A stretch of DNA of 37,126 bases. Origin: Bacteroidales bacterium. GTDB taxonomy: Bacteria > Bacteroidota > Bacteroidia > Bacteroidales > JAAYJT01. The DNA lies in assembly GCA_012522795.1 (NCBI GenBank), contig JAAYJT010000097.1:1-37126 (forward strand), given 5' to 3'. Numbering within the stretch: the first letter of the stretch is position 1; each line of letters opens with the position of its first letter. Positions 15,927-35,185 of this stretch are shown here, one piece after another. A program made the position numbers and the translations under genes. The notes beneath the pieces were generated by a model that worked only from the letters and a program-made list of their open reading frames with translations, had not been told where the DNA came from and ran no database searches.

Positions 15927-18239
15927 TTAATCCCGCATGATCAATAATTTACAGGTTGAAACAGGCTGATTATTATTTGAAAATAATTTTACAATGTAAA
16001 CTCCGGGGTCGTAATAATGAGTGTTCAGATTTAAAATTCTTTCTGAATCATTCAAAACAATCTTTTCAACGCTTTTACCCAGAATATCCATTACCTCAAT
16101 CAGATTACAATTATCATATGTCCAGCTTATTGTTATCAATTCATTTCCGGGATTAGGGAAGCAAAACAATTTATTATTTTCCTGAATTTCAGGTTCATAA
16201 ACCATAGTTGTATAATCTTTCAAAGCAAGAGTATATTCTCCTTTCTGAAAAGATGGGATTTTAATGATACCTGCCTGCCATGTACCCACTCTGGTAAATT
16301 CTACCGACTGCCAATCAACAGCCGGAGAAGGCCGATACAGAATAAAAAGTGAATCACCCGGGCGGGTTATAAGAGTATTATCAACAAAGCCGGTTACCAT
16401 ATATGTAAACTGAATTTCAGCATCAAACCCCTCAGGTATTATGCCATCAATATGCCAATAACGATAGGGTGAAAGGGTAACTCCGGGCAAAGGCTCTTTT
16501 AACGGATCAGGTGCTACCCAGTTATGTGTTACACGAACAAATGCAGTATCGGAAACTGATTTTACCACCAGCTTACAAAATAAATCGCTGAAAGCAACAT
16601 TGCCGGTAGTGGTAATTAGTTTAGCCTGATCGCTTGTAGCATCACATATTTTTTCATTATAATCCATCATTGCAATAACAGGTTCGAAAGGCAACTGAAA
16701 AAGTTTACTACCGGTTTCACCATCAAAAAACATAGTTTCAGAAAAGGTCTCGCGCAGATGGTTCATAAAAGTGATCTCCACTAAATTGGCATCTCCAATA
16801 AAATCACGTCCTTTTCCTTTCTGACGTACAAAAACCTCAGCCTCATTACCTGTAACAACCATTGAATCAATAGAATAATGAGGAAAACCGGGTGTAAAAA
16901 CCCAGTTATCAAAGAATGCTGTCAGATCTATTCCACTGTGTTGCGATAATGCATCCCTTAAGTCATAGGTATTTGCATTGCTATAGGCATATAAATCTAA
17001 ATAATGCCTTACTGCCGGAAAGAACAGATCATCACCCATATAGTTTCTCAGGGTTTGGATCACCAGCCCTCCTTTCTGGTAAACTGTCTTTCCATAAACA
17101 TAAGCCGGCGGAATATTGCTCAGGGCATGATAAGCTCCATCGCCCGAAGGCGTGTGCAGATACTGAAGAATATCCCTATGCTTGATCCGTTGCTCTATCA
17201 ATGCAGTTTCGCGGTCGTAAAGCTCTTCACGAAAAAGTAATTCATTCCACACTGCCCAGCCTTCATTCAGCCACATTTCTCCCGGTCCGGCACAAGTTAC
17301 CTTATTGCCAAACCACATATGCGATAATTCATGAGCATAAAGCCATTCATTATTCAGAGAATTATCAATACTACCATGAGGGTAAAAAATATTTCCGGCA
17401 TGCTCCATAGCACCAAGTGCAGTACCTGTATAACCTACCCTTTCAAAAGGATACGGCCCAAAATGGTTTTCGTAAATAGCAAGGATGTTTTTAAGGTTTA
17501 AAAAAGAACCGGCTACTTTCCATTCGTCGTTGGGTCTGACAAAAATACTTATTGGAATATCATCTTCAATACCATTATAAATACCAGATACTTCAACATA
17601 TTCGCCAACTGCTACTGACGCCAGATAGGTTGGTATGGTTTTTTCCATCTTCCAGTGAAATGTATGAGTGCCATCGTCATGGTTTGTAACAGACTGCAAC
17701 AATCCGCCACAAACTGCCTTTTTATTCTCACTCACACGGATATGAAAATCATACAAAGCGCGATCGAAAAAATTATCGCTACACGGGAACCATGCTTTTC
17801 CAAGACTTGGCGGATAAGAATCAAAGCCAACACCAAGATTAAAAGCATATTGCCCGCTATAATGAAAACCACCCCAGGATTCGTTATAGGGAACACCGCT
17901 ATAATAAACCGATAGATAAATAGTATCAGAATTAGCATACGACTGATTTAACATGATATGCAAATCATCGCCATTATGCGTGAAATTGGTAAGAGCCTGC
18001 TCGCCAATAAAAACTGAATCAACACTAAGCTTTCGTAAATTAAGTTCTATACTGTTCAAACCATTGCCTAATGGGGTGAGTGTAACTGTTGTTTTTCCAT
18101 TAATACTCTTTCCTGAAAAATCAAGTACGTCAAGCCTGATTTCATAATGAAGCACGTCAAAATTAACGGGTGAAGCAATGCCGGCAACAGCTCCGGTAAA
18201 AAGTGACAGGATACATGTAAAAATAAATCTTTGAATCAT
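15927..18239 (-). CDS. Secreted M1 family metallo-aminopeptidase with T9SS sorting domain
   Basis: This 770-residue protein starts with a signal peptide (about residues 1-22). An M1 beta-domain follows, then the gluzincin zinc site His303, His307 and Glu326 (HELSH, 18 residues, then E in WLNEG). The substrate motif normally GAMEN reads GAMEH (276-280), a known but less common variant. A long C-terminal region with beta-sandwich character ends in a T9SS type A domain (about 692-770; CFPNPGNELITISW, DILGK, GVYIVKLF). It should therefore be exported through the T9SS and released or attached at the surface, removing N-terminal residues from peptides. The alkD pseudogene follows it closely. Confidence 0.9.
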   Translation of the reverse strand: MIQRFIFTCILSLFTGAVAGIASPVNFDVLHYEIRLDVLDFSGKSINGKTTVTLTPLGNGLNSIELNLRKLSVDSVFIGEQALTNFTHNGDDLHIMLNQSYANSDTIYLSVYYSGVPYNESWGGFHYSGQYAFNLGVGFDSYPPSLGKAWFPCSDNFFDRALYDFHIRVSENKKAVCGGLLQSVTNHDDGTHTFHWKMEKTIPTYLASVAVGEYVEVSGIYNGIEDDIPISIFVRPNDEWKVAGSFLNLKNILAIYENHFGPYPFERVGYTGTALGAMEHAGNIFYPHGSIDNSLNNEWLYAHELSHMWFGNKVTCAGPGEMWLNEGWAVWNELLFREELYDRETALIEQRIKHRDILQYLHTPSGDGAYHALSNIPPAYVYGKTVYQKGGLVIQTLRNYMGDDLFFPAVRHYLDLYAYSNANTYDLRDALSQHSGIDLTAFFDNWVFTPGFPHYSIDSMVVTGNEAEVFVRQKGKGRDFIGDANLVEITFMNHLRETFSETMFFDGETGSKLFQLPFEPVIAMMDYNEKICDATSDQAKLITTTGNVAFSDLFCKLVVKSVSDTAFVRVTHNWVAPDPLKEPLPGVTLSPYRYWHIDGIIPEGFDAEIQFTYMVTGFVDNTLITRPGDSLFILYRPSPAVDWQSVEFTRVGTWQAGIIKIPSFQKGEYTLALKDYTTMVYEPEIQENNKLFCFPNPGNELITISWTYDNCNLIEVMDILGKSVEKIVLNDSERILNLNTHYYDPGVYIVKLFSNNNQPVSTCKLLIMRD

Positions 18240-20977: not shown

Positions 20978-22219
20978 ATGAGTAAGAAACGAACTGTTTT
21001 AACCATTCTGGGAGCTGCTTGTCTTGTTGTTATTTTTTTTATCATAAGATATTTTTTGCAGACACCTTGCATCATCCAAGATGATGACGAAACATACACT
21101 CCCGAGCCGCTCACAAAATACGGCATTCCGGTTGATTCCCTTATTTTGTATGAAGGAGTAGTACTACCCCGCGAAACATTATCGGATATTTTGGGTAGAT
21201 ATAATGTAAGTTCCGCCGATATATATAAACTCGCAGAAAAAGCTGATGGAGTATTCAATCTTCGCAGAATAAAGGCAGGTCAGAATTTTTCGGTTCTGTG
21301 TTTGAACGATTCAATGCAAACCGTTAAATATTTCATTTATGAAGAATCACCAACATCATTCGTGGTCTTTAATCTTGGTGATACAATTAATGTTTACACT
21401 GCAGAGCGCGAAATTGAACGACGTATTAAAATATCAGACGGAACAATAGAATCATCGCTTTGGAATGCCATGATCTCAAATGGTGACGATCCTCAACTTG
21501 CTCTGGAATTATCAAATATCTACGCCTGGACTATTGATTTTTTTGGAATTCAACGTGGTGACAGCTATAAAGTAATGTTCGAAGAGCTCTATGTTGAAGG
21601 GCAACGTATTGGTATTGGAAAAATATTTACTTCGGTGTTCAGACATTTGAACAATGACTATTATGCTTTTTACTATGAGCAGGATGATGATGGAGATTAT
21701 TTTGATGAACAGGCTAATAGTCTGAGAAAATCTTTTTTAAAAGCTCCTTTGCAATACTCACGTATATCGTCGCATTTTTCACATCGCCGTTTGCATCCTG
21801 TACATCGCGTTTATCGTCCGCATCATGGTGTAGATTATGCAGCTCCTACAGGAACCCCGGTTATGGCCATAGGTGATGGCAAAGTAACTTTTGCAAGATA
21901 TAAGGGGGCTGCCGGAAACATGGTTGAAATTGTACATAACAGCGTTTACAAAACACAGTATCTGCACTTGTCAAAGTATGGTAAGGGAATTCGTGAAGGT
22001 GTGAGAGTTAAACAAGGGCAGGTAATTGGCTATGTAGGAAGTACGGGCACCTCTACCGGACCACATTTAGATTTCAGAGTTTATGAAAATGGCAAGCCTG
22101 TAAATCCGCTGACAGTAAAATCGCCTCCGGCTGAACCAATTAAACCCGAATATAAGGATGATTATCTGAATCATGCCGATTCGTTAAAACATCTCTTACA
22201 GGAAATCGTAGAAATTTGA
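20978..22219 (+). CDS. M23-type peptidase domain protein with altered HxH motif
   Basis: The 413-residue protein has an N-terminal membrane anchor (residues about 7-27), then an OapA/Csd3-like N-terminal region (about 55-250) and a C-terminal M23/LytM domain (about 260-385). The first zinc ligands, in HHGVD (His282, Asp286), are present. The second motif, usually HxH, reads GPHLDFRV (His363, Asp365), so the usual third His ligand is replaced by Asp. It may be a cell-wall endopeptidase with an unusual metal site, or an inactive regulator such as the EnvC/NlpD type. It follows iorB by 59 bases, but there is no functional link. Confidence 0.85.
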   Translation: MSKKRTVLTILGAACLVVIFFIIRYFLQTPCIIQDDDETYTPEPLTKYGIPVDSLILYEGVVLPRETLSDILGRYNVSSADIYKLAEKADGVFNLRRIKAGQNFSVLCLNDSMQTVKYFIYEESPTSFVVFNLGDTINVYTAEREIERRIKISDGTIESSLWNAMISNGDDPQLALELSNIYAWTIDFFGIQRGDSYKVMFEELYVEGQRIGIGKIFTSVFRHLNNDYYAFYYEQDDDGDYFDEQANSLRKSFLKAPLQYSRISSHFSHRRLHPVHRVYRPHHGVDYAAPTGTPVMAIGDGKVTFARYKGAAGNMVEIVHNSVYKTQYLHLSKYGKGIREGVRVKQGQVIGYVGSTGTSTGPHLDFRVYENGKPVNPLTVKSPPAEPIKPEYKDDYLNHADSLKHLLQEIVEI

Positions 22220-22287
22220 GAATAAAGAATTTTATATGGTAAGTATATAGCTTCAATCTGAACTAATATAAAATAAAATTTATTAAA

Positions 22288-22322
22288 AGAGAGAGGCTGT
22301 TCCAAAAAAACAGTCTCTCTCT
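22288..22322. terminator. Bidirectional terminator between convergent genes
   Basis: AGAGAGAGGCTGTT (22288-22301) pairs with AACAGTCTCTCTCT (22309-22322), 13 Watson-Crick pairs and one G-T, with a 7-base loop. It lies between the stops of the plus-strand M23-like gene and the minus-strand lipoprotein operon. On the minus strand a T-rich run follows, so it fits termination of the first SusCD operon best. Confidence 0.75.
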
Positions 22323-22344
22323 CTTATAATGTTAAAATGAGTTA

Positions 22345-23142
22345 TTAAAGCTTAGTAAACTTAAATGAAAACTGTCCGAATGAACCCTGATCAACAGTGA
22401 TAGTAAAGTTCATATCGTAGACTCCATTACAGGTATTAAGAATACCAAATCCTTGATACGAGAAGTTTGTATAACCAAATGCATTTGATGCAAGTACCGT
22501 TTTTTCTGCAATAACTTCAAAATTCAACTTATTTACTTCCATCTTCAGGGGACCTTGGTCTTCATTTACCCCATCCATTGCAGCCAAACCGGAAACATAG
22601 ATTATGTATGGATCATCGGGATCAACAGTAAGGGTAACATTTCCTTCAGAGTCCCAATCGTCACTTACAACATAATAAGCACCGGATACAAAATCAGGAT
22701 CATATTTACAAACTGCTGCAGCGTTGAAAGCTGCACTTGACCTGTAAACATCTGATCCTTGAACAGTTAACAATTCAAAATTAAACACATCACCAGGATC
22801 AATATCACTAATTTGAATTCCTAATAGCGAAGCCGCCTCATGAGCAAAAATCTGCACAGTCGAAGGGAAAGTTGTGAAGTTTTTAATCTCCACTCTTTTT
22901 TTGTCGCCATTAAAAGAAACCACAATTTTAACTTCACTCACGGTAGATGTATTAACATCAAGGTCAAATTGAATAAAGGTATTTGCCAAATCTTTTACAT
23001 CAAAAACAGCAGGATTAAAATTCGTAATTGAAGGAATAACACCTACACCTCTTAAGCCTGCTGGATCCTCAACTTCGGTTTCGCAAGCAGAAAAAGCAAA
23101 AACCATTAAGAATAAAAGGGCTATTATTTTATTTGTTTTCAT
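22345..23142 (-). CDS. Uncharacterised lipoprotein of SusCD operon 1
   Basis: The predicted product has 265 residues. I chose the Met at 23142 because it gives a proper lipoprotein signal (MKTNKIIALLFLMVFAFSAC, lipobox Cys20); the longer frame from 23199 adds residues unlike a signal peptide. The residues after Cys, ETEVED, are acidic, as in Bacteroidota surface-exported lipoproteins. I do not recognise the family. The body is Asp- and Phe-rich with beta-strand character, and it sits third in the operon, where SusE/F-like or other ligand-binding lipoproteins are often found. A ligand-binding role is inferred from position only. A strong hairpin follows the stop. Confidence 0.75.
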   Translation of the reverse strand: MKTNKIIALLFLMVFAFSACETEVEDPAGLRGVGVIPSITNFNPAVFDVKDLANTFIQFDLDVNTSTVSEVKIVVSFNGDKKRVEIKNFTTFPSTVQIFAHEAASLLGIQISDIDPGDVFNFELLTVQGSDVYRSSAAFNAAAVCKYDPDFVSGAYYVVSDDWDSEGNVTLTVDPDDPYIIYVSGLAAMDGVNEDQGPLKMEVNKLNFEVIAEKTVLASNAFGYTNFSYQGFGILNTCNGVYDMNFTITVDQGSFGQFSFKFTKL

Positions 23143-23174
23143 ATCATTATAAATTAAGGTTTTAAAAATAAAAC

Positions 23175-24617
23175 TTAACGTGTGCCACCGGCCCACCATA
23201 CTTTTTCTGTGTAAACATAAGTTCCGTCACCATATGCTTCATGAACGTTATAATTTGTAGTTACATCGCTTGCTCCATAAGTATAGCGTTGAACAAACTG
23301 ATTTGCATTTAATGGATTAGCAAGTACAATTACATTATTACCCATTGCAATTAAGCGACGATAATCGTTATATGCTTCAACAGCTTCTTCCTCAAAGAAA
23401 GCAATATATTTCTGGTTCATTACTTCTGAAAGCGGGTCGGCTGTAAACTTAGGAAGAACTTCGCTATCGAAATATGCATCAGCATCATCAGCAGTCAAAC
23501 CAATATTTACTTTCTGAAAAGCAGCAGTAATAGCTTTTTTCAAAGCAGTTTTAGCAGCATCATTATTTCCAGATCTCACATAGGCTTCCGCTTTCAAAAA
23601 TTCAATTTCATGATAACTTAACAAATAGGTTGGTGCTGTTGGGATTGAGATTGCTGAAACACCATATTTTCCTTGAATGTTTTCAGGGCTCCCATTTGGA
23701 GCAAATTCAGATGAACCTGTATCTGGATGTTCTTTCCAGAAAATATTGACTCTCGGATCATTTCTGTTGGTAAGCTTATCAGATAAACTCTGACTAGGGG
23801 CAAAATAATCGCGATCAGTAAAGAAGCGATAGAAAGGGCTAAAAGTTGTACTAGCATTATATTTGAACTGACACTGATCAGCAGCAGATTTATACGATTG
23901 GTCAGCCAAAGCTATAACTTCATCATAATTAGGATTTTTAAATGATAAGCGCATTGTATAGCGAGCTTTTAATCCATAGGCAGTCTGTAGCCAAAGTTTA
24001 GCATTTCCTCCATAAATAAAATCCTGGGATCCTAATGATGGAAACGTAGTTTCTTTTCCTAAATTTTCAATTGCATCATCAAGAAGCTGAAATACAACTT
24101 TATAGATATCTTCCTGCTTATCAATCTTTGGAGTAAATATTTCACCTGGTTGTAATGCTTCTGTCCATGGCACATCACCCATCAGGTCAGTAAGCATAGC
24201 AAGAATATACGCATTTAAAATCTGTGCAATACCCAATGTGTGGTAATTTCCTTCCTCAGAGCCTTCCGGCGAACATTTGTTTATGATCACTTTAAGATCT
24301 GCAAGATTTCTGTACATTGAGTTCCATGAATTATTGTAAGTTGTTGCGCTAATAGGTTCGCCTGATCTAATTTCAGCACTATAGCTTTGACCATAACTAC
24401 CAACGTTATGCTCCATATAAACTGATGCATAAAAGGCAAGATCACTTCCGGTAATATTAAATGCAGTACTTGTAATTACATCAGTAATTATTAACCTTGA
24501 TGCTACATCAGTTGGATCGTTTACGTTTTTATTGATATCATCCATGATATCTTCTGAACATGACCAGAATGCAAATACCAGAAGTCCAGACAATAATATA
24601 TTTAGTATTTTTCTCAT
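23175..24617 (-). CDS. SusD/RagB-like lipoprotein (SusD-like_2 type)
   Basis: This 480-residue lipoprotein (lipobox FWSC, Cys20, followed by SEDIMDD) is the ligand-capturing lid of a SusCD importer. It resembles the SusD-like_2 subfamily: an N-terminal DINKNVNDPTDV segment, TPR-like helices (YRNLADLKVII, AQILNAYILAMLTDLMGDVPWTEA) and a C-terminal FLKAEAYVRSG and EYNDYRRL-like portion. It starts 17 bases after susC and is followed 32 bases later by the third-gene lipoprotein. The substrate is unknown. No carbohydrate enzyme is encoded nearby, so the system may import peptides or another nutrient. Confidence 0.87.
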   Translation of the reverse strand: MRKILNILLSGLLVFAFWSCSEDIMDDINKNVNDPTDVASRLIITDVITSTAFNITGSDLAFYASVYMEHNVGSYGQSYSAEIRSGEPISATTYNNSWNSMYRNLADLKVIINKCSPEGSEEGNYHTLGIAQILNAYILAMLTDLMGDVPWTEALQPGEIFTPKIDKQEDIYKVVFQLLDDAIENLGKETTFPSLGSQDFIYGGNAKLWLQTAYGLKARYTMRLSFKNPNYDEVIALADQSYKSAADQCQFKYNASTTFSPFYRFFTDRDYFAPSQSLSDKLTNRNDPRVNIFWKEHPDTGSSEFAPNGSPENIQGKYGVSAISIPTAPTYLLSYHEIEFLKAEAYVRSGNNDAAKTALKKAITAAFQKVNIGLTADDADAYFDSEVLPKFTADPLSEVMNQKYIAFFEEEAVEAYNDYRRLIAMGNNVIVLANPLNANQFVQRYTYGASDVTTNYNVHEAYGDGTYVYTEKVWWAGGTR

Positions 24618-24634
24618 AATTTATATTTTTAAAA

Positions 24635-27600
24635 TTAAAATGTAATATCTAAACTAAATCCATAACTGGTGGTTTGAGGAAGTGAGAATCTCTCAAATGC
24701 GCCTCCCATGTTAGTATTACCCTGCGAAGTTTCCGGATCAAGGTTGCGTAAAGCAGACCAGATGAGAATATTTCTGGCAAATACAGAAATGCCGGCAGTG
24801 GCAGTTTTATATATGTTTTTAGGAAGTTTATATTTTAGCGCAATTTCACGTAATTTAACAAAGGAATTTTCATGAACATAAAATTCATCAATATCTCCAA
24901 GCCTATCAGAATATAACTTCTGAATAGCAAGAGGATCTGTAGGACCACCTCTAACAATATCATTGGGAGTACCATCATCTTTTACACCTTTAAAAATAAA
25001 AGTTGATTCTCTGTCTTCAGTAACTTTCGACATGCCATAAAGATCAAGCAATCCATTTGATCCTGAATACATATGCCCCCCTTGTTTCCATTCAAAAACA
25101 GCACTTAATGAAACTGATTTATATGAAAAAGCTGTTGTACCGCCTAAAATAAAATCGGGTGAAACTTCACCAATTACAGCTGGTTCACCAGGCATCGGGA
25201 AACCATGATCCCATGCACCGGGATTATCTATAACAACAATATTTCCATTATCGTCACGCACAAATGAAGTACCGTATATAACAGGAAAAGTATTACCAAT
25301 ACCAGCACGAACCTGAGGAGTTACGAATCCACCCAAAAATATACTCTCAACTCCGGAAGCAAGCTTGTCAACCATATTTGTAATCTTTGTAAAGTTAAAG
25401 TTTAAATCCCATTGAAAATCGCTTGTTCTTACAGGTGCTGTATAAAGAATAATTTCATGAACATCTGTAGTAACGGCACCACCATTCATTATAAGTTGTC
25501 CAGATCCGGTTGAACCTGCAAGTGGCACTGGGAAGATTTGATCAGTAATATTTTGTTTTGAATATGTATAATCAATTCCTAATCTGTTGTTCAGGAATTT
25601 AAGATCAAATCCAAATTCATATGAAGAAGTATTCTGAGGTTTCAAATTGGGGTCGTAAAGTGAATAACTTGGAATATAAGCTCTTACTCCTCCAATTGGA
25701 TACTTTATTGGCTCACCCAGCCAAAACCCTCCACTGTATGTGGGGGTGACAAAGTAATTTTCATAATAGTTTCCTGCCTGTCCGACTTCAGCATACGAAG
25801 TCCTTAATTTTGCAAATGATAACCAACCAAGATTTTTCAAAGGTTCAAGCTCAGATGCTACAAATGAAAGGGACGCCGAAGGATAGAAAAAGGTTCTGTT
25901 TCCTCTTGGCATTGTTGAAACAACGTCATTTCTGCCGGTAGCATTAAGATAAATCATTGATTTCCATGAAAGTGATAAACTTCCAAAAACTCCAACTGTC
26001 CTGTTAGCCCATTGAAACTCATCGGCAGAAACTACACTGGCATTATTTATATGGTTCCATCCCGGGAAAATAAAGTTTTGACCATTATCTGAATAACCTT
26101 TTGAATTAGAATGATTTAACTCATTACCTACTAAAAAGTTGAAATCAAAATCTTCATTTATTAACCAATCAAATGAAGCTGTGAATAATGAATTGAATAT
26201 TGTGCTTGTGGTTCCATAATTATCAATTTCACCCTGTGAATTATTCCTGCTACCATAACCAAATATATCCTGTAAGTGTGTTGTATAATTATCAGCACCA
26301 AGCTGATAGCGAAGCTTTAAGTTCATGTTATTTGCAATGTCGGTTTTGAAACTAACAAATGCATTTCCAAAAAAACGTCCGGTTTTTTCGTTAAATGTAT
26401 TATTATGTTCTACCCAATATGCATTATCAAAAGAACCGCCACGATAATAAATTTGTCGAGTAGGTTCACCCGGCCAATGGTAAGGGATCTCTTTCAAATT
26501 GTAACTTGAAGGTGCTGACAAAACTCCAGCAAGCGAACCATCATTAGCACCTGATAACTTATCAATATTAATATCGGAATAATTTGCCGAAAAACCAACA
26601 TCGAAATAGCTGTTCAGCTTTCTTTCGGCATTAGCTCTAACATTGTAACGCGTCATACCTGTGTTTAAAGCAATCCCTGTTTGATCTGTGTTGCTGAAAC
26701 CAAGAGAGAAATTGCCTCCGCTTGTGGCTTGAGATACATTAATAGTATTGGTCATAGTATAACCAGTTCTGAAATAGTCATCCCAATTATTGTAAACAGC
26801 AGGATATACCCATGGATCAAGACCAGCCTGTTCAAGCTGAAATACTCTGTACATGCCGGGTTTGCCATTATTATCTCCGCCAAATGTAGGATCCTTAGGC
26901 AGATCAATAATTTTTGTACCCCATGATGTAGAAGCATTGTAAGCATAATTTCCATTGGTACCCTGCGAATATATTGTTTGATAATCAGGGGTTCTGGAAA
27001 CTACATCAAAGCTACTGTTATGACCAATGGTAACAACAGGTCTACCCACTTGAAGATTCTTACCGCTCTTTGTTGTAATAATTATAACACCATTGGAAGC
27101 ACGGATTCCATATAGCGCTGCCGCTGCTTGTCCTTTAAGAACTTCAATGCTTTCAATATCAGCCGGATTGATGTCAATTGCTCTGTTCGAAATGTCAGCG
27201 CCAGTTACACTATTTCCGGTTGAATATATTGGATTTGAAGCAATTGGCATTCCATCAACAACATACAAAGGAGCATTGTTTCCGGTAAAGGAACGTGCAC
27301 CTCTGATCTGAAACTGTGAAGATGCTCCGGGCATACCGCTTGAAGGCTTAATATCAATACCGGCAACTTTACCTTGTAGTGAGCCTAATAAGCTTACGTT
27401 TCCGGTACGGGCAATATCCTGATTATCAACTGACTGAACTGCATAACCGAGAGATTTACTTTCACGGCTGATCCCCAACGCTGTAACAACAACACCTTCG
27501 ATGTCCAAAACTTCAGGCTGCATAACTACATTAATAACTGTGCGTCCTGAAATTGCGACTTCCTGAGTAACCATACCAACGAAACTAAATACCAAAGTTA

Positions 27601-27802
27601 GTGCATCATCTGGCACTGATAAGGCATATTTCCCGTTTAAATCTGTTACCGTTCCAATGGCAGTTCCTTTAACTCTAACAGAAACCCCAGGAATATCACT
27701 ACCATCATCGGCATTCGTAACAATACCTGTAATTGTTCGCTGTGCGAACATAGCCTGCACCGTAAATAGCATGCAGACTAGTAGAAAGGTAAATTTTCTC
27801 AT
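24635..27802 (-). CDS. SusC/RagA-type TonB-dependent receptor, operon 1
   Basis: This 1055-residue outer-membrane receptor has a signal peptide (about 1-20), a carboxypeptidase-regulatory-like domain (about 21-95), a TonB-box-like VVVTALGISRES segment (103-114), a plug (about 115-245 with QIRGARSFTGNNAPLYVVDG and ADIESIEVLKGQAAAALYG) and a long beta-barrel ending in Phe. The ALGISRESKSLGYAVQ form is the variant often paired with SusD-like_2 proteins, as here. Its N-terminal 50 residues are strongly similar to the SusC at 30034-33111, and the two genes share upstream leader blocks. It imports a TonB-powered substrate that cannot be named from sequence alone. Confidence 0.93.
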   Translation of the reverse strand: MRKFTFLLVCMLFTVQAMFAQRTITGIVTNADDGSDIPGVSVRVKGTAIGTVTDLNGKYALSVPDDALTLVFSFVGMVTQEVAISGRTVINVVMQPEVLDIEGVVVTALGISRESKSLGYAVQSVDNQDIARTGNVSLLGSLQGKVAGIDIKPSSGMPGASSQFQIRGARSFTGNNAPLYVVDGMPIASNPIYSTGNSVTGADISNRAIDINPADIESIEVLKGQAAAALYGIRASNGVIIITTKSGKNLQVGRPVVTIGHNSSFDVVSRTPDYQTIYSQGTNGNYAYNASTSWGTKIIDLPKDPTFGGDNNGKPGMYRVFQLEQAGLDPWVYPAVYNNWDDYFRTGYTMTNTINVSQATSGGNFSLGFSNTDQTGIALNTGMTRYNVRANAERKLNSYFDVGFSANYSDINIDKLSGANDGSLAGVLSAPSSYNLKEIPYHWPGEPTRQIYYRGGSFDNAYWVEHNNTFNEKTGRFFGNAFVSFKTDIANNMNLKLRYQLGADNYTTHLQDIFGYGSRNNSQGEIDNYGTTSTIFNSLFTASFDWLINEDFDFNFLVGNELNHSNSKGYSDNGQNFIFPGWNHINNASVVSADEFQWANRTVGVFGSLSLSWKSMIYLNATGRNDVVSTMPRGNRTFFYPSASLSFVASELEPLKNLGWLSFAKLRTSYAEVGQAGNYYENYFVTPTYSGGFWLGEPIKYPIGGVRAYIPSYSLYDPNLKPQNTSSYEFGFDLKFLNNRLGIDYTYSKQNITDQIFPVPLAGSTGSGQLIMNGGAVTTDVHEIILYTAPVRTSDFQWDLNFNFTKITNMVDKLASGVESIFLGGFVTPQVRAGIGNTFPVIYGTSFVRDDNGNIVVIDNPGAWDHGFPMPGEPAVIGEVSPDFILGGTTAFSYKSVSLSAVFEWKQGGHMYSGSNGLLDLYGMSKVTEDRESTFIFKGVKDDGTPNDIVRGGPTDPLAIQKLYSDRLGDIDEFYVHENSFVKLREIALKYKLPKNIYKTATAGISVFARNILIWSALRNLDPETSQGNTNMGGAFERFSLPQTTSYGFSLDITF

Positions 27803-27978
27803 AATTAAAAATTTTTAGTTAGAAATGATTGAACATTAGTTTAATTTGAAAAAAGACAGATTCTTTAATCATGCATATATATTTAGTTTGACATTTTCAA
27901 TATGCGTATAGATTAAGACTTTGCAGAAAATTTTGGCTAAGGTATAACAAAATTATTAACCTGTAACAAAACTTAACA
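27803..27978 (-). promoter_or_regulatory. Conserved leader and putative promoter of susC operon 1
   Basis: The first 176 bases upstream of the ATG share ordered blocks with the leader of the second susC. On the plus strand these are TTAGAAAT (27819-27826), TAGTTTAATT (27837-27846), GCATATATAT (27873-27882), CTAAGGTA (27937-27944) and the 15-base TAACAAAACTTAACA (27964-27978). Read on the minus strand, TACCTTAG could be a -7 box, with TTTG at 27967-27970 as a -33 box 22 bases away. That would leave a leader of about 130 bases. The TTAG ending departs from the housekeeping TTTG, so an alternative sigma factor is possible. Confidence 0.5.
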
Positions 27979-28280
27979 GTTTTTTTTCCTACAAATACTG
28001 TGCTCTGGTTCATTCACAAGTAAAACCCCGGTAAAGTTCCATTATATTTAAAATTACTAACTATCACAGCACCATAAGGTTATTTAATGATATGTTAGAA
28101 CTAAAGAGACTATTATAGTCAATATAAAAAGAAAAAATAATTTCAGAGTTAACTCAAAATTATAAGATAATTTCTGATCTGATTAGTCTTTCTTAGGAAA
28201 AACAACTAATAACCTCTCCTGTGATTTCAAGCAATAAGAGTATTTAAAATTACACTATCCTGTAAAAGTCTCTATAAATA
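27979..28280. other. Intergenic region between the two SusCD operons
   Basis: This AT-rich stretch separates the operon 1 leader from the operon 2 terminator. It contains the 10-base palindrome GAGTTAACTC at 28146-28155 but no open frame, hairpin or promoter that I can support. Confidence 0.35.
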
Positions 28281-28326
28281 TAAAAAAACTAGCCGCCTCA
28301 AAAATTAAGATGATGAGACGGCTAGT
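28281..28326 (-). terminator. Rho-independent terminator of SusCD operon 2
   Basis: ACTAGCCGCCTCA (28288-28300) pairs with TGAGACGGCTAGT (28314-28326) with one mismatch or wobble in 13 and a 13-base loop. On the minus strand the GC-rich stem is followed directly by seven T residues (complement of the A run at 28282-28288). It lies about 70 bases after the susD stop, as expected for the end of this operon. Confidence 0.85.
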
Positions 28327-28396
28327 TCTATACTGGTAAACCACTGTTATTCAGCAGGGATTAGATAAATAATTAATCATTTGTTGTGTTGATGCA

Positions 28397-30013
28397 TTAA
28401 TACCCAGGATTCTGCTGTTCAGCAAGCTTTGGATTTGCATTTATTTCATCTTGCGGAATTGGCCATAAAAACAGGTGGCTATCATAAGGAATAGCATATA
28501 ATAATTCACCACTGTATGGTCCTTTCAAATTACCGGAAGCATCAAATAATTCAAACTCTTCTGCTGGTGCAAAACCAGTCTGAACTTTTCCTGGTACACC
28601 GGCTATAGGGAAATACGGACAGTGTTGTAATCTATGAATATCAGGAAAACGACGTCCTTCCATAGCCAGTTCAATACGTCTTTCAATTAAAACAGCATTA
28701 AGTAATTCCTTATTATCAGCAAAATCTGAAGCTTTATAGCTTTGTGTTGTAGGATCAGCCAATGAGCGATCGCGAACCACGTTCAGATAGGTCAATGCAT
28801 CGCCAACCTGATTTTCTCTTGCATAAGCTTCTGCAAGGTTAAGTATTACTTCAGCATATCTCATCATGGGAGATAAATCAGTATAACCTACATCATCTTT
28901 GTATTTATGAGTGTAAATAACTCCATTTGCTTCTTTAAAAACCATATTAGGTTCATCACGCCTTTTATCATCGGGCAACCATGACGGATTTCTCCATAAT
29001 ATAGGGCTATGGCTTATTAAAAGTCTGCGCTTATATTGTGAAGCCAAAGCTCCGTTAACACTTGGATAATTTGTTTCCGAATTTTCCATGCCAAAAATAT
29101 ATTCATCTGAACCGTAGTTATTAGTAAACACAGTCCATGGCTCAGCTCCAAGTGCATAATGACCGGCATATACTCCACCGGCAACAAATTTGCTTGCTTC
29201 CTGAATAACTTTAGCGTGATCCCACACATGCTGATATACGCGTGCTTTTAAAGCAGCAGCAGCTCCTTTTGTTCCTTTTGAAACCTTTTGATTACCTGAC
29301 CGGGCTGACTTTAATGGAAGGTATTGCTCAGCCAGATCAAGATCTTCGATGATCCACTGATAACACTCACCAACAGAATGTCTGCCTGTTACAAAACCTT
29401 CATCAATGGTTCCAAGAGTAGTAAATGGTTTTTTATGATAAGGCACTCCCAAGTGAGAAGCATCTGCTGTGTGCTTATAGGGTCTGGCAAAATGAATTAG
29501 CAGTTCATGGTAAGATGCCGCTCTGAGCAATAAGGCTTCACCCAGATATTCATTAGCCTGTTCTACGGATATAATGCCTTCTTCACCAGCTTTCTGAACT
29601 CCTTCGGCAACTATATTTATCCGATTAATAAGACGATAGGTATCGTTCCAGTAGAATACATTATTGGCGGTAGTTGAATTATATGTACCCATATAGGTAA
29701 TTTGATAAAACGCCTGAGTATTCACAACATCCTCGCCACGATTATCGCCCTGCTGAACAAAAGCTGCTCCAAACGGATATCCGCGAAGTCCATCGCCTGT
29801 AGGCAATCTGTACTGTCCAACCTGAGCGGCTTCGTACATACCATTAACAGCAAGAGCAATCTTTTCAGGTGTATCAAAGGCAACATTTTCGGAGATCTGA
29901 TTATAAGGCACCAGATCTAGTACATCTTTTTCGCATGAAGTAAAGAAAATTCCAAAAGCAAAAAATGATGCGAAAAGTAATAGCAAGCTTTTATTATATT
30001 TATTCTTTTTCAT
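28397..30013 (-). CDS. SusD/RagB family lipoprotein, operon 2
   Basis: The 538-residue lipoprotein has a lipobox FTSC (Cys27) followed by EKDVLDLVPYNQIS, the standard start of canonical SusD proteins. It has the SusD N-terminal TPR region (VNGMYEAAQ, YRLINRINIVAEG, GEALLLRAASYHELLIHFARPY) and the RagB/SusD C-terminal region (LNLAEAYARENQ, IERRIELAMEGRRFPDIHRL, ending FLWPIPQDEINANP). It caps the SusC barrel encoded 20 bases upstream and should sit on the cell surface. It belongs to a different subfamily from the operon 1 SusD, so the two operons are not a simple whole-operon duplication. The substrate is unknown. Confidence 0.93.
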   Translation of the reverse strand: MKKNKYNKSLLLLFASFFAFGIFFTSCEKDVLDLVPYNQISENVAFDTPEKIALAVNGMYEAAQVGQYRLPTGDGLRGYPFGAAFVQQGDNRGEDVVNTQAFYQITYMGTYNSTTANNVFYWNDTYRLINRINIVAEGVQKAGEEGIISVEQANEYLGEALLLRAASYHELLIHFARPYKHTADASHLGVPYHKKPFTTLGTIDEGFVTGRHSVGECYQWIIEDLDLAEQYLPLKSARSGNQKVSKGTKGAAAALKARVYQHVWDHAKVIQEASKFVAGGVYAGHYALGAEPWTVFTNNYGSDEYIFGMENSETNYPSVNGALASQYKRRLLISHSPILWRNPSWLPDDKRRDEPNMVFKEANGVIYTHKYKDDVGYTDLSPMMRYAEVILNLAEAYARENQVGDALTYLNVVRDRSLADPTTQSYKASDFADNKELLNAVLIERRIELAMEGRRFPDIHRLQHCPYFPIAGVPGKVQTGFAPAEEFELFDASGNLKGPYSGELLYAIPYDSHLFLWPIPQDEINANPKLAEQQNPGY

Positions 30014-30033
30014 TTTTCAACATTTTTTAAGGT

Positions 30034-33000
30034 TTATAAACTGAAATTAATACCAAAAACAAAAGTTCTTTGTCTTGGAGTTCCATTATAATCATATCCA
30101 TCTTCTCTTTCCATTTCAGGGTCTACACCGGTATAATCAGTAATCATGAATAATTCAGAGCCTGAAACAAATACTCTTAATCCATTAATGCCAACACGAC
30201 TTAGCAAATGTTTAGGAAAGGTATAACCTAAAACAAGGTTCTGCAGTTTCAGGAAATCAGCCTTTTCAACAAAACGTCCGCTGGTTTCATTCTGGCGATT
30301 AATGAAATTGGTCTGTCCATACCAAAGTTTTGGTGTCCAGCCATCACCGGGTTTATCAGGGCTTTGCCATCTTTCAAGCATTTCAGAACCAAAGTTTGTA
30401 AATGTATTTGAAAGTAGATCGGCTCTGGTACGATTCATTATATAATTACCACCTGAAAAACGGAAGAGCATTGAGAAATCAAAGTTTTTGTATTTCAAAT
30501 CTGAAGTTATAGCGCCAAAATATGTTGGAAGTGATGAACCAAAAACCTTTCTGTCGGATGCAGCAAGTGTGGCTGCTTGTGAAACATCTTCAGGATCGTT
30601 GGGATCATATACTCTGTAAGTTTGATTTGCAATATTACCCTGAACCATAGTTCCGTCAGCCTTGCGGTATATCGGATTGCCATTGGCTTTATTTACACCT
30701 ACATAATCATAACCATAAACTGAACGTATGGATTCTCCTACATCAATTATGGTATAGGTAAGAATAATTGGCTTGTCATCAACAAGTGAAGTTACTTCAT
30801 TCTTTGTCAATGTGAGATTAACACCAACATTCCAGGATAGATCACGAGTGCTTAATACTCTGGCATCAACTGAGAACTCATGACCTGAGTTTCTCATAGT
30901 TCCTATATTTCTGTACACATAGTTCCCGGGAACACCAAACGAAGGAGGAGTAGGTGCCTGAAGGATAAGACCGTCAAGATCATTAAGGAAATAATCGTAG
31001 GTTAAAGTGAATTTCCCATCAAGAATTGAAGCATCCAGACCAATATCATATTTATTACTTGTTTCCCATAATAACTGATCATTACCCATTTGAGCAAAGG
31101 CAATACCTGTATAATCAGCATATCTGACACCCGAGTACAAACCCAGATATGGATAATTTCCAATGAAAGAGTTACCAACCTCAGCATAAGAAGCTCGTAT
31201 CTTCAGATCGGAAATAAAATTCACATTCTCCATAAAACCTTCGCGTGAAACAGTCCATCCAACTGAAACTCCCGGGAAGAAACCCCATCTGTTGTCTTTT
31301 GGTAAAGCTGACAAGCCATCGTAACGTGATGATAACTGAATAAAATATTTACTATCATAATTATAGCTCAAACGTCCGGCATAGGAAAGAATCCCATTAC
31401 CGGTCATACTACCCGATGAAAGTTGTGTTGAATATGAACCACCAATAACACCATACCTGAAATGAGGATCGGAAATATTGGTTCCACCGGCAAAGAAATA
31501 GTTGTAGTTTTGCTTTTGAGCTTCCTGAACCAATGTTGCACTGAGATTATGAATATCAGCAAAAGATTTGTTAAATGACAAAATGTTCTGAATATTCCAT
31601 ATCAGAAAATTGGTTTGGGTATTATATATTCTTCCTTTTACTGATGCACCATCACCATGGATAGGGTTCCAGTACAAAAGACCTTCGGTCATTGAAAGGT
31701 CAACACCTATCTGTGAGCGGAAATTAAGAAATGGCAATAAATCCGCTGCACCATAAACGCTCATTGTACCTCTGTTTACTTTTGAACCATAAACATTGTT
31801 CTTCAATGTATACATAATATTGGGAAGGTTATCATCAATAGTCTGAAGATTCTCCCCGCGACCTACCAATTGTGGATTTACAAGGTCAATATTATAGCCG
31901 GTAGGATGATCAGGATTATAAATAGGAGTATTAGGAAGTTGTCTTATTGCTGAGAAAACATTACCCGACAATGAGTTTTCTCCAGTATTTTGGCCATTAT
32001 ACTGAGTACGGGCAAGATTTGCACCTGCACCAAATGTGATGGCTTTCGTAACTTTCTGGTCAAGGTTAGCACGGAATGTAAACCGGCTCATATCGTTAGG
32101 TATTGTAACGCCTTCCTGATCAGAATAACCCACTGAGAAATAATATCCGGTTTGTGGTGTTGAACCTGACAAAGAAATTATATGGTCTTGCTGGAATGCA
32201 TTGCTCCTAAGAACCTCTTTCTGCCAGTCGGTATTAAGTCCGGTTGCTATAGCAGGGCTTGTTCTACCTGCATTTTCAAACATTTCAGCAGTCAATTCAA
32301 GAAATTCTGTTTCATTAGTCAAATCAAACAGTCTGACGGGTTGTGCAATACCAAAATAATTACTATAATTCAACTGGAATTTTCCGGCTGTCCCTCTCTT
32401 GGTTGTAATAAGAATTACACCATTAGCAGCTCTTGAACCATAAATAGCAGTTGCTGAACCATCTTTTAATACTTCAATTGATTCAATGTCTGCCGGATTT
32501 ATATCTCCAAGAGCGTTAGTAGAAGCGTATCCTCCAACATCTCCGGTAAGGATTGGAATACCATCAACAACAATAAGAGGGTAGGTACCGGATGTTATTG
32601 ATCCAACACCCCTGATACGAATTCTTGGTACCTCACCAAGTACACCGGTCTGCGATGTGATCTGAACTCCGGTAGAACGACCCAGCAATTGGGATTCAAA
32701 GCTGGGAGTTGCTATTTTAGCAAGTTCATCTCCACGAATTGATGTAATCGAACCAGTAACCTCTCTTTTTCTTTGAGTTCCATAACCAATAACAACCAAT
32801 TCTTCAAGAGTGGTTGCTTCAGGTTGTAAAACAACATCAATAACCGAGCGCCCTAAAATCTGAATCTCTACGGTTTGAAAACCAATAAAACTAAACATCA
32901 GGCTGACAGCATCGGCAGGAACAGTAAGAACATACTTACCATTGGCATCAGTAACAGCGCCAGTGGTAGGTGCGCCCTTAACAACAACAGAAACACCTGG

Positions 33001-33111
33001 TATTCCTTGGTTGTCTTCTGAACTGGTGACAACACCAGTGATAGTTCGCTGTGCGAATATAGCCTGTGCTACCAGCAGCATACAGGCCAGCAAAAAAGTA
33101 AATTTTCTCAT
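30034..33111 (-). CDS. SusC/RagA-type TonB-dependent receptor, operon 2
   Basis: This 1025-residue receptor has a signal peptide (about 1-20), a carboxypeptidase-regulatory-like domain (about 21-97), the classic SusC segment LEELVVIGYGTQRKREVTGSI-like at about 102-120 that acts as the TonB box region, a plug (about 120-235 with RIRGVGSI, YPLIVVDG, IESIEVLKDGSATAIYGSRAANG) and a C-terminal barrel ending in a Phe-rich strand and Leu. The signal peptide and first domain are close to those of the other SusC, while the barrels look distinct. It is cotranscribed with the downstream susD, which begins 20 bases later. Confidence 0.94.
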   Translation of the reverse strand: MRKFTFLLACMLLVAQAIFAQRTITGVVTSSEDNQGIPGVSVVVKGAPTTGAVTDANGKYVLTVPADAVSLMFSFIGFQTVEIQILGRSVIDVVLQPEATTLEELVVIGYGTQRKREVTGSITSIRGDELAKIATPSFESQLLGRSTGVQITSQTGVLGEVPRIRIRGVGSITSGTYPLIVVDGIPILTGDVGGYASTNALGDINPADIESIEVLKDGSATAIYGSRAANGVILITTKRGTAGKFQLNYSNYFGIAQPVRLFDLTNETEFLELTAEMFENAGRTSPAIATGLNTDWQKEVLRSNAFQQDHIISLSGSTPQTGYYFSVGYSDQEGVTIPNDMSRFTFRANLDQKVTKAITFGAGANLARTQYNGQNTGENSLSGNVFSAIRQLPNTPIYNPDHPTGYNIDLVNPQLVGRGENLQTIDDNLPNIMYTLKNNVYGSKVNRGTMSVYGAADLLPFLNFRSQIGVDLSMTEGLLYWNPIHGDGASVKGRIYNTQTNFLIWNIQNILSFNKSFADIHNLSATLVQEAQKQNYNYFFAGGTNISDPHFRYGVIGGSYSTQLSSGSMTGNGILSYAGRLSYNYDSKYFIQLSSRYDGLSALPKDNRWGFFPGVSVGWTVSREGFMENVNFISDLKIRASYAEVGNSFIGNYPYLGLYSGVRYADYTGIAFAQMGNDQLLWETSNKYDIGLDASILDGKFTLTYDYFLNDLDGLILQAPTPPSFGVPGNYVYRNIGTMRNSGHEFSVDARVLSTRDLSWNVGVNLTLTKNEVTSLVDDKPIILTYTIIDVGESIRSVYGYDYVGVNKANGNPIYRKADGTMVQGNIANQTYRVYDPNDPEDVSQAATLAASDRKVFGSSLPTYFGAITSDLKYKNFDFSMLFRFSGGNYIMNRTRADLLSNTFTNFGSEMLERWQSPDKPGDGWTPKLWYGQTNFINRQNETSGRFVEKADFLKLQNLVLGYTFPKHLLSRVGINGLRVFVSGSELFMITDYTGVDPEMEREDGYDYNGTPRQRTFVFGINFSL

Positions 33112-33278
33112 AATCTCATTGATTTTGATTAGAAATTGTTTAACACTAGTTTAATTAATAAATAAATTACTCAAGCATATATATTGAATTTAACATAGCC
33201 ACCATACTAAGAAATTACCGCCTCGAGAAAATTTGCGCTAAGATATAAAATAATATTTGATTTTAACAAAACTTAACA
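33112..33278 (-). promoter_or_regulatory. Conserved leader and putative promoter of susC operon 2
   Basis: On the plus strand the blocks shared with the first susC leader are TTAGAAAT (33129-33136), TAGTTTAATT (33147-33156), GCATATATAT (33175-33184), CTAAGATA (33238-33245) and TAACAAAACTTAACA (33264-33278). Read on the minus strand, TATCTTAG could serve as a -7 box, with TTTG at 33267-33270 as a -33 box 21 bases away. Distances from the ATG agree with the first copy to within about ten bases, so the arrangement is conserved, not only the words. Confidence 0.5.
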
Positions 33279-33353
33279 AATTATTTTAAAAAATGGCAAT
33301 ATGATGATAGAACCTAAGAAAAAGCAATTCAATTAATCATCTTTAACATACTG

Positions 33354-33921
33354 TTACCCAATACTTCCAATTACATTTTCAACCTCAATAAAAACCTCAT
33401 ATGACTTAACCAGATTTTTCATTTTATTATGATCCAGATACAAAATATGGTCAACATCCAGAAATTCAAATTATTTTCTTAACACTTCACGTACCTTATT
33501 TGTTCCGACACTATATATAATATATTAAGGAGTTTCATATTTTTCTCTCAGATCCCGGACTGACGCCATAAACTCAATGCCAAGAATCAAGAATATCAAG
33601 AGCATTATCAAGAGTCTTAAAATTCTTTAAAGCAGTATTCATTCCCATTAAAACAAAGTCTTCCTGGTCTGCAGCATGATTATAGATTAGGTATTTTTGA
33701 AAATCCTTTACCTGATCGTCATTAAGTACGACTTCTGAAAATTCGCCAAAACAGGTATTTACACCGTACATTATTTCTTTGGCAACAATTTTCTTTTCAA
33801 GCACTGCACGACATGAATTAATACGTTTTTCTGTATCAGGGAGCAGTTCCACTTTCTCATGAAACCTTGCAATTTTAATAAGGTTCTCAACACTAAGATT
33901 GGCTCTGGCAATAGTAATCAT
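33354..33921 (-). pseudogene. Decayed histidine ammonia-lyase gene
   Basis: The 5' part (33921 downwards) encodes the normal N-terminus of an aromatic amino-acid/histidine ammonia-lyase: MITIARANLSVENL, EIMYGVNTCFGEFSEVVL and FQKYLIYNHAA. The sequence then jumps, in frame, to the family's C-terminal region: DQEDFVLMGMNTALKNF, then DNALDIL. A duplicated ATTCTTG causes a frameshift to a stop at 33574-33576. In the shifted frame it resumes as LGIEFMASVRDLREKYETP, and beyond a TAA as GTNKVREVLRK, then FLDVDHILYLDHNKMKNLV and EVENVIGSIG. The catalytic core with the MIO-forming Ala-Ser-Gly is absent: only about 190 of some 500 codons remain. The N-terminal Cys in NTCFGEF replaces the usual Gly. Confidence 0.85.
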
Positions 33922-34027
33922 AGTTAAGAAATTCACGAATTATTGTTATTATTTGATTTACAAAATTCTCCCCTGTTTACTAATAAACCCTGTTATCATT
34001 GAAATTGATATTAGCATTTCATTTACA

Positions 34028-35185
34028 TCAAACAATTATGTTTGCCCGTTTTTCAGTTCCTTTCTTAAAAAGTTTTCGATAAGTTATATGTCGTTTTGAA
34101 AATGTACTTTGTACCGCATCATGAAGCTTTTGCATTTTGGGATTAAAATCGCCTACCCATGCAAGCTCAATTTCAGTGTAATTTGGTTTCTTACGCATAA
34201 TTTTGTCCATATGCCAGAATATTGCAGATTCAATTCCATAGCGCTGAAACCGGGGAATTACACCCATTACGGTAATGCGTGCCTTTGTATAAAGGTCTTT
34301 TCTTTTTAACAGCAAAAATCTTATTTTATCCAATAAATTCAGTCTGCCATTAAAGTATTTAAGTATCTGATTTGCATCAGGCAACATTACGAGAAACGCC
34401 ACCGGCTTTTTATCATGATAGGCAAACCATATAAACTCCTCATTAAGAATATGTTTTGCTTTCTGAAATTCTTTTCTCAGTATGTCCAAATCAATAGGGG
34501 TAAAATGCTCGTGATGCACCCATGCCTGATCATATACCTCTTTAATATCTCTCAGATATTTTTCAGAATTCTTTTTTTTAAAGTGCTCGTATGCAAATCC
34601 GGGCTTTTGTCTTATCCAGTCGGCTATTTTCCAGAAACGTTCAGGAAATTCTCTGGTAAGATCCAGTTTATTGGTAATTTGTTCAAAAAAATTATAGAAT
34701 CCATAATTTTCAAAAAAATTCTGATAATAAGAATGATGATAGTTCATACCATAGCTGGGGTTGTTGAAACCTTCAACCAGCAAACCCCAGTAACTTTCGT
34801 TCTCACCAAAGTTTACAGGCCCATCCATAGCCTGCAAACCGGCTTTTTCAAGCCAATCCCTGCAAGTATCAAACAAGAGAAAAGCTGCTTCCTGATTGTC
34901 AATACATTCAAAAAAGCCCATACCACCGGTTGGTTGCTCATATTTACGGGCTTTCTCCCAATTATAAAAAGCAGCCACCCTCCCTATTAATTCACCATTA
35001 TCATTTATTAAAATCCATCGGGAAGCATCGCCATTATTAAAAAAAGTGTTTTTTAAAGGATCAAAAATAGCTTCTATATCCTTATCTAAAGGACAAACAA
35101 AATTAGGGTCATCTTTATAAATAACCCTTATAGCATCATGAAACTGCCTAACCGTCTTACGATCAGTTACTTGTATTATTTTCAT
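34028..35185 (-). CDS. GNAT-fold acyltransferase-like protein
   Basis: The 385-residue protein resembles a Bacteroidota family annotated only as GNAT-like. The N-terminal part (about 1-130; RVIYKDDPNFVCPLDKD, GRVAAFYNWEKA) and the C-terminal part (about 240-375; EEFIWFAYHDKKPVAFLVMLPDAN, RITVMGVIPRFQRYGIESAIF) each look like a half or whole GNAT unit. The second contains an RFQRYGIES segment similar to the acetyl-CoA pyrophosphate loop. The middle is aromatic-rich (YHHSYYQNFFENYGFYNFFEQ-like block). The acceptor is unknown. It is transcribed away from the LptF/LptG gene and is next to the ammonia-lyase remnant. Confidence 0.7.
   Translation of the reverse strand: MKIIQVTDRKTVRQFHDAIRVIYKDDPNFVCPLDKDIEAIFDPLKNTFFNNGDASRWILINDNGELIGRVAAFYNWEKARKYEQPTGGMGFFECIDNQEAAFLLFDTCRDWLEKAGLQAMDGPVNFGENESYWGLLVEGFNNPSYGMNYHHSYYQNFFENYGFYNFFEQITNKLDLTREFPERFWKIADWIRQKPGFAYEHFKKKNSEKYLRDIKEVYDQAWVHHEHFTPIDLDILRKEFQKAKHILNEEFIWFAYHDKKPVAFLVMLPDANQILKYFNGRLNLLDKIRFLLLKRKDLYTKARITVMGVIPRFQRYGIESAIFWHMDKIMRKKPNYTEIELAWVGDFNPKMQKLHDAVQSTFSKRHITYRKLFKKGTEKRANIIV

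Follow-up and report, generated by a model that had tools for sequence, protein, structure and literature searches.

How one and the same leader came to stand before two outer-membrane transporters of different ancestry, and whether it places both under a common control, is the question raised by two neighbouring susC genes, here called A and B, of a Bacteroidales bacterium (GenBank assembly GCA_012522795.1, contig JAAYJT010000097.1). The window, that is, the whole stretch of 37,126 nucleotides (nt) that was analysed (contig C79), belongs to a genome of 2.88 Mb in 100 contigs with a completeness of 97% (G000), and on its minus strand susC B and its susD partner are followed by susC A, its susD partner and a gene for a protein of 284 amino acids (Table 1). 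The answer favoured here, with moderate confidence, is that a resident unit of promoter, leader and signal peptide, derived from an old lyase-linked susC locus, came to lie before two SusCD pairs of different ancestry by duplication or recombination. What the arrangement suggests is less a new regulatory device than a single inherited switch and start signal placed ahead of two unlike transporters.

The likeness of the two leaders is extensive and sharply delimited. Five blocks had been reported upstream of both genes in the first-pass annotation of this DNA, and all of them were found again in the order and at the distances from the ATG given there, namely 17/18, 35/36, 71/64, 135/127 and 162/153 nt (A/B). 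Aligned over 175 nt without any coding sequence, the leaders reach a score of 134, against a mean of 51.0 (standard deviation 6.8, maximum 76) for 1000 dinucleotide shuffles, which corresponds to a z-score of 12.2; the next-best score obtained with either leader among 144 upstream regions sampled from the genome, a set which includes leaders A and B themselves, is 61. A BLAST search with leader B and 62 coding bases retrieves leader A at 71% identity (E 8.6e-24). The homology begins abruptly about 180 nt before the start codon and runs on into the gene: the identity window from -184 contains 21 identical bases in 24, and every window further upstream contains 8-14 in 20-25. The shared unit spans from about -180 into the signal peptide.

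Beyond the signal peptide the two genes are less alike. The annotation had assigned the SusD partners to different subfamilies, which their domains bear out (PF12771 for A, PF07980/PF14322 for B), and had found the SusC signal peptides and first domains alike, as is also the case (80% of 20 and 57% of 88 residues). Identity between A and B is 76-80% in the signal peptide, 41% in the plug and 20-24% in the barrel. At identical residues, the third bases agree in 54% of the pairs (124/231) over codons 2-21 and in 39-42% in the other segments, the pairs not being independent of one another. Moreover, the signal peptide of A is 62% identical to that of its ortholog in the relative G002 (gene and leader G002_61a), and the corresponding value in three other ortholog pairs of the two genomes (L130/L132, L136/L138 and L142/L147) is 28-32%, with 34-64% in the CarbopepD domain, 85-91% in the plug and 77-79% in the barrel. 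Since both the third bases and the signal peptide of A are unusually well kept, the conserved unit reaches into the signal peptide; since the CarbopepD domain is poorly kept in the control pairs, no crossover point can be fixed. A domain swap between A and G002_61b, the second such gene of G002, was suggested by shared residues (9 with the ortholog, 23 with G002_61b) and was set aside as conjectural, the control pairs diverging equally fast at their N-termini.

The relatives of B lie elsewhere. In G001 and G002 it has no near counterpart, the barrels of the nine susC genes above the TIGR04056 cut-off being at most 30% identical to its own. When two candidates per genome were scored, matches at E 1e-220 or better were found in 4 of 295 genomes, its own and those of G040, G267 and G261 from three other families, at 58-65% identity. 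The identity of B to these three genes is 76-78% in the plug, 56-65% in the barrel and 29-48% in the signal peptide; aligned with leader B, their leaders reach 50, 44 and 40, no more than chance gives. In the quartet formed by A, B, G002_61a and the gene of G001, 16 leader sites join A with B and 5 join A with its ortholog, whereas in the plug 97 sites join A with the ortholog and 17 join A with B (leader versus plug, p 5e-8). The earlier proposal that the leader and the 5' end of susC were duplicated or kept as a unit is thus upheld by the leader homology, the domain identities and the quartet sites together.

The kind of locus from which the unit may derive is indicated by synteny. In G002, G001, G042 and G095 a histidine-ammonia-lyase-like gene, full length and free of stops, is followed by the leader and by susC; PF00221 was found in the three copies tested, and the copy of G002 lies over the NF006871 cut-off and below the TIGR01225 cut-off for hutH. 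In the window only a decayed remnant of such a gene is present upstream of susC B, in which the start is joined to a piece from late in the gene, a large stretch of the interior is lost and the later pieces are out of frame, and the genome of the window is not among the 97 of 295 in which a lyase search gave E 1e-150 or better. Seventy-one lyase loci from the matching genomes were examined (30 loci, 40 stretches and G042, some with short flanks), and in 15 a susC-like gene starting MRK or MKK lies within about 1.5 kb downstream, a count made by reading gene starts by eye and not by profile search. The start-proximal conservation among A, B, G002_61a and G001 is explained by their belonging to the same kind of lyase-linked locus. 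A DNA search with the leader matched 47 of 99 relatives at E 0.01, and among the 29 loci listed from it four (L020, L022, L029 and L047) are starts of susC genes carrying the leader, the remainder being other genes, positions inside susC or places with no gene start. In several genomes small genes of about 130-165 codons with hydrophobic stretches follow the lyase-like gene (L285, L296, L316 and others), in some of them between it and susC. Taken as a whole, the comparison of sequences establishes that the leaders are homologous, that the bodies are not close relatives and that homologous leaders occupy comparable loci in related genomes.

The promoter-side half of the leader resembles an ordinary promoter. 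Read on the coding strand, the distal blocks are TGTTAAGTTTTGTTA followed by TACCTTAG (A) or TATCTTAG (B), and they probably constitute the -33 and -7 elements of a Bacteroidota housekeeping promoter, TTTG-N21/22-TAYCTTAG. The consensus of the primary sigma factor of the phylum, sigma-ABfr, is quoted as TTTG at about -33 and TAnnTTTG at -7 (PMC7366714). TTTG is exact in A and B, with spacings of 22 and 21, and five of the six specified -7 bases are matched in both, which read TTAG where the consensus has TTTG; the leader of the ortholog G002_61a, TTTG-N21-TATCTTTG, matches all six and thereby the full consensus. Spacings of 17-23 were accepted in the scan, and the candidate promoters end 134 (A), 126 (B) and 143 (G002_61a) nt before the ATG, so that, if the promoter is correctly assigned, the 5' untranslated regions would measure about 120-130 nt. 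Of 18 homologous or syntenic leaders, 7 contain a promoter match if 175 nt are considered and 10 do so if 200 nt are.

The start-proximal half, in turn, is most plainly read as an initiation region free of Shine-Dalgarno pairing, with an unusually conserved upstream extension. Block 1 forms part of an element, TTTCTAACYAAAA, imperfect in B, which recurs in several families of the order before susC genes that follow the lyase-like gene. The word TAAC[CT]AAA (TAACYAAA) is present at -30..-9 in 8, and at -140..-41 in none, of the 11 leaders for which synteny was the sole criterion of choice, as compared with 7/79 in a broad SusC set (80 loci, one of them too short) and 5/191 genes of this genome; leader A contains it. 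In the broad set A occupies -13 in 69% and -12 in 68% of the loci, and TTAAC, a word picked post hoc, occurs near the start in 19/79 versus 0 and 7/79 in two windows more distant from it. R1, a profile covering the last 50 nt, was built from ten seeds including A, B, G001, both G002 leaders, G042 and G095; in this genome it gave low E-values for the two leaders only, the next being 0.144, and its matches to its own seeds hold by construction, those leaders having built it. Over 99 genomes, 17 of the 21 non-seed loci listed for R1 do not lie before an open frame of at least 100 codons. The pattern TTTAACCNTTTCTAACCAAAA was present with up to two mismatches in 38 of 393 genomes, that of the window not among them, and with at most one mismatch in five, namely G001, G117 and G215 (lyase-linked susC), G091 (no start codon near) and G274.

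In Flavobacterium johnsoniae, A at -13, -12, -6 and -3 promotes initiation (PMC6847099). Runs of A are found at -14..-10 in leader A and at -15..-12 in leader B, with a further A at -3 in both, so that -13, -12 and -3 agree with that system; position -6, on the other hand, is T in A and G in B, and the homologous leaders add a conserved TTTAACC...CTAACY upstream of the A-rich part as well as conserved first codons. An upstream peptide beginning at the ATG of block 3 was also considered and rejected: short frames exist in B, G002_61a and G001, but inspection by eye shows a stop after three codons in A.

Table 1. Positions of the features discussed, numbered along the window
Feature	Position	Strand	Basis or remark
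Candidate -33 box TTTG, susC A	27967..27970	-	inside 15-mer 27964-27978; spacing 22
Candidate -7 box TACCTTAG, susC A	27937..27944	-	promoter scan
Candidate -33 box TTTG, susC B	33267..33270	-	inside 15-mer 33264-33278; spacing 21
Candidate -7 box TATCTTAG, susC B (CTAAGATA in the first-pass annotation)	33238..33245	-	promoter scan
Block 3 of B, ATATATATGC	33175..33184	-	kept within the genus in degenerate form
Block 3 of A	27873..27882	-	
Start-proximal element of B, ATTTCTAATCAAAA, putative translation initiation region	33112..33161	-	R1 match E 2.4e-7, R1 seed; without exact TAACYAAA
Start-proximal element of A, ATTTCTAACTAAAA, putative translation initiation region	27803..27852	-	R1 match E 1.4e-5, R1 seed
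Leader B, putative promoter and 5' untranslated region, homologous to leader A	33112..33291	-	alignment
Leader A, putative promoter and 5' untranslated region	27803..27987	-	BLAST, alignment
susC B, 1025 aa	30034..33111	-	TIGR04056, Plug, CarbopepD_reg_2; domain identities
susD partner of B	28397..30013	-	PF07980/PF14322
susC A, 1055 aa	24635..27802	-	78% identity to syntenic ortholog in G002
susD partner of A	23175..24617	-	PF12771
Decayed histidine-ammonia-lyase-like remnant, upstream of susC B	33574..33936	-	intact homologues adjoin homologous leaders in relatives
Third gene of susC A operon, 284 aa	22345-23199	-	G002 copy 66% identical
Candidate terminator of B operon, imperfect GC-rich hairpin AACTAGCCG...CGGCTAGTT, 3' of susD B	~28288-28330		by eye
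M1 peptidase with Por_Secre_tail (secretion-system C-terminal sorting domain)	15927-18239	-	elsewhere in the window

On the account preferred here, the resident unit would consist of a housekeeping-type promoter, a 5' untranslated region of about 120-130 nt without marked structure, a start region free of Shine-Dalgarno pairing and the codons of the signal peptide. The second SusCD pair (B) would have entered the locus or arisen in it, and duplication and recombination would have given it a share of the leader and 5' end resident there. The primary sigma factor would then transcribe the two operons from promoters of one type, ribosomes would be recruited at the A-rich region of both mRNAs, and the outcome would be the parallel expression of two unlike SusCD pairs. 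The component parts are of known kinds; the interest of the locus lies in two transporter bodies of separate origin being headed by a single expression unit, and in a start element found again in several families. Among the papers listed by a literature search over titles and abstract openings, with most subscription journals outside its scope, none describes this leader.

Several observations weigh against this account. As regards the promoter, matches occur in 25/144 upstream regions and in 14/144 shuffled ones (p 0.084), and, once A and B are excluded, in 5/16 leaders versus 23/142 background regions of 175 nt (p 0.16); leader A, besides, holds a second, weaker match. As the matches exceed the shuffled background only modestly, the assignment is probable and no more, on the strength of position and of conservation in A, B and G002_61a. 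As regards the leader, the last 45 nt of A are 73% identical to those of B, 75% to those of G002_61a and 80% to those of G001, and B is closest to G001 (87%); identities among these four range over 73-87%, with G002_61b more distant (60-74%). The special likeness of A and B therefore lies mostly in the promoter-side half, and the distal leader of G001, a member of the quartet, may not be homologous. With A and B, leader G002_61b scores no higher than chance (49 and 31), though it reaches 76 with G002_61a, and B reads TAATCAAAA, the exact TAACYAAA being absent from B, G002_61b, G179, G270 and G076. Finally, as regards the history of B, the leader of its nearest full-length relative, that of G040, scores 67 with G002_61a and holds TTTAACCATTT, for which reason a start region of related kind may already have been present in the donor lineage of B; in G001 a B-like plug is preceded by the leader, and this combination may therefore predate the species; and the low N-terminal identity of B to G040 is by itself no proof of a crossover, since signal peptide and CarbopepD domain diverge fast in ortholog pairs generally. 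In the G040 leader (L325), several TTAACC-like units stand in tandem (TTTAACCATTTCAAACCATTTATTAACCATTTTTAACC) in the 5' untranslated region shortly before the start.

The main live alternative, unproven and not very likely, is that a small RNA (sRNA) or an RNA-binding protein acting in trans targets the conserved start region (TTTAACC...CTAACYAAAA), silencing or freeing both mRNAs. The identity of TGTTTAACCATTTCTAACCAAAA between G001 and G117, which belong to different families, exceeds the generic A-rich trend, and the leaders lack marked predicted structure, as would suit such a site. There is also precedent: in Bacteroides thetaiotaomicron susC mRNAs are controlled by the FopS/GibS sRNAs and by RbpB, with FopS and RbpB acting on the susC gene BT_3983 (PMC11697453), and here such control would likewise fall on the translation initiation region of susC. 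However, plain ribosome recruitment demands the same position and A content, the element is imperfect in both leaders of the window, and no sRNA has been identified, no search for one having been made and an Rfam scan of the window having given three matches, all below the gathering score and none in a leader. A consensus scan for a DonS-like cis-antisense promoter at the susC start was negative for A, B and G002_61a and gave one candidate for G002_61b. The more specific idea of a shared structured RNA leader finds no support either: the whole leaders fold no better than shuffled sequences (z-scores -0.54 for A, 1.42 for B, 1.61 and -1.17 for the two G002 leaders), even if some minimum-energy folds pair bases near the start. 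In its boldest form, which is rather unlikely, the proposal would be that UUUAACC-N3-UCUAACYAAAA, ending about ten bases before AUGAGAAAA, makes up with the first codons a conserved, dedicated single-stranded site of translational control. Such a site would serve the mRNAs of susC genes linked to the lyase, and of related ones, in families throughout the order; it would be recognised by an RNA or RNA-binding protein acting in trans, and would be handed on as a module to newly arriving SusC bodies.

It is quite unlikely that a dedicated transcription factor or an alternative sigma factor co-regulates both operons through the 15-mer. In its favour, no other exact block is as long, and the candidate -33 box falls within it together with bases upstream; but the only exact copies of the 15-mer in the genome are those of the two leaders, and it is missing from the 16 others of the 18 leaders compared, including the orthologous G002_61a. 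The four sites with one mismatch lie in or at coding ends, three of them belonging to similar genes of contig C54 and the fourth to the end of an open frame of contig C2. The three C54 genes (L016-L018), within 9 kb of each other, have near-identical ends P[IV]PLS[NH]WA.YVGIA.MLSFVVIRFRRIF, in which a short motif is followed by a hydrophobic stretch and then by arginine-rich residues, and it is their DNA that nearly matches the 15-mer; these endings resemble a C-terminal sorting signal. With no third exact site of the 15-mer in the genome, and since R1 likewise gives low E-values at both leaders only, a regulon is unsupported. What survives of the common control originally proposed is its weak sense: the same putative housekeeping-type promoter and a homologous translation start are likely to be shared, judging from the sequence features above, and a dedicated regulator is as unproven as an sRNA.

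An old tandem duplication of the whole susC, in which the body diverged and the leader changed slowly, is clearly improbable too. The genes are neighbours on the same strand with homologous 5' ends, and G002 also has two adjoining susC genes with related starts; but in the barrel B shares 56-65% with genes from other families and 20-24% with A, for which local duplication alone is insufficient, and the identities already point to a tree of plug and barrel in which genes of other families come between A and B. Still less probable, to a very high degree, is an active phase-variable shufflon swapping susC 5' ends. Shufflons of nutrient receptors have been reported in B. thetaiotaomicron (PMC12548429), and they likewise bring unlike surface nutrient receptors under one control; here, by contrast, each gene has its own leader, the copies are direct and diverged (about 75% identical), no inverted repeats of at least 18 nt (seed 12) occur in 22000-34100, and a Pfam scan of 21 proteins, the products of part of the open reading frames of the window, revealed no recombinase family. 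Chance likeness of AT-rich words, finally, has virtually no probability: several blocks are AT-rich and TTAGAAAT is a fairly common word with five occurrences in the window, but the other four blocks are confined within it to the two leaders, and for the leader as a whole chance is refuted by the shuffles and by the comparison with the 144 upstream regions.

Among the remaining features of the locus, the third gene of the susC A operon gave no Pfam match, either in the window or in its G002 copy, and the latter gave no NCBIfam match; a candidate terminator of the B operon and, at some distance, an M1 peptidase gene with a sorting domain complete Table 1.

If the account of a resident unit before two unlike SusCD pairs is true, a newly acquired outer-membrane transporter can be placed behind a promoter, translation start and signal peptide that are already resident, and the immediate co-expression of SusCD pairs unlike in ancestry would be accounted for. 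The lyase-linked start element would further offer a handle on translation start in Bacteroidota without Shine-Dalgarno pairing, and would also bear on the matter of a common control site in susC mRNAs outside Bacteroides; failing that, the locus would illustrate in detail how a promoter and start region of the ordinary kind can resemble a regulatory cassette.

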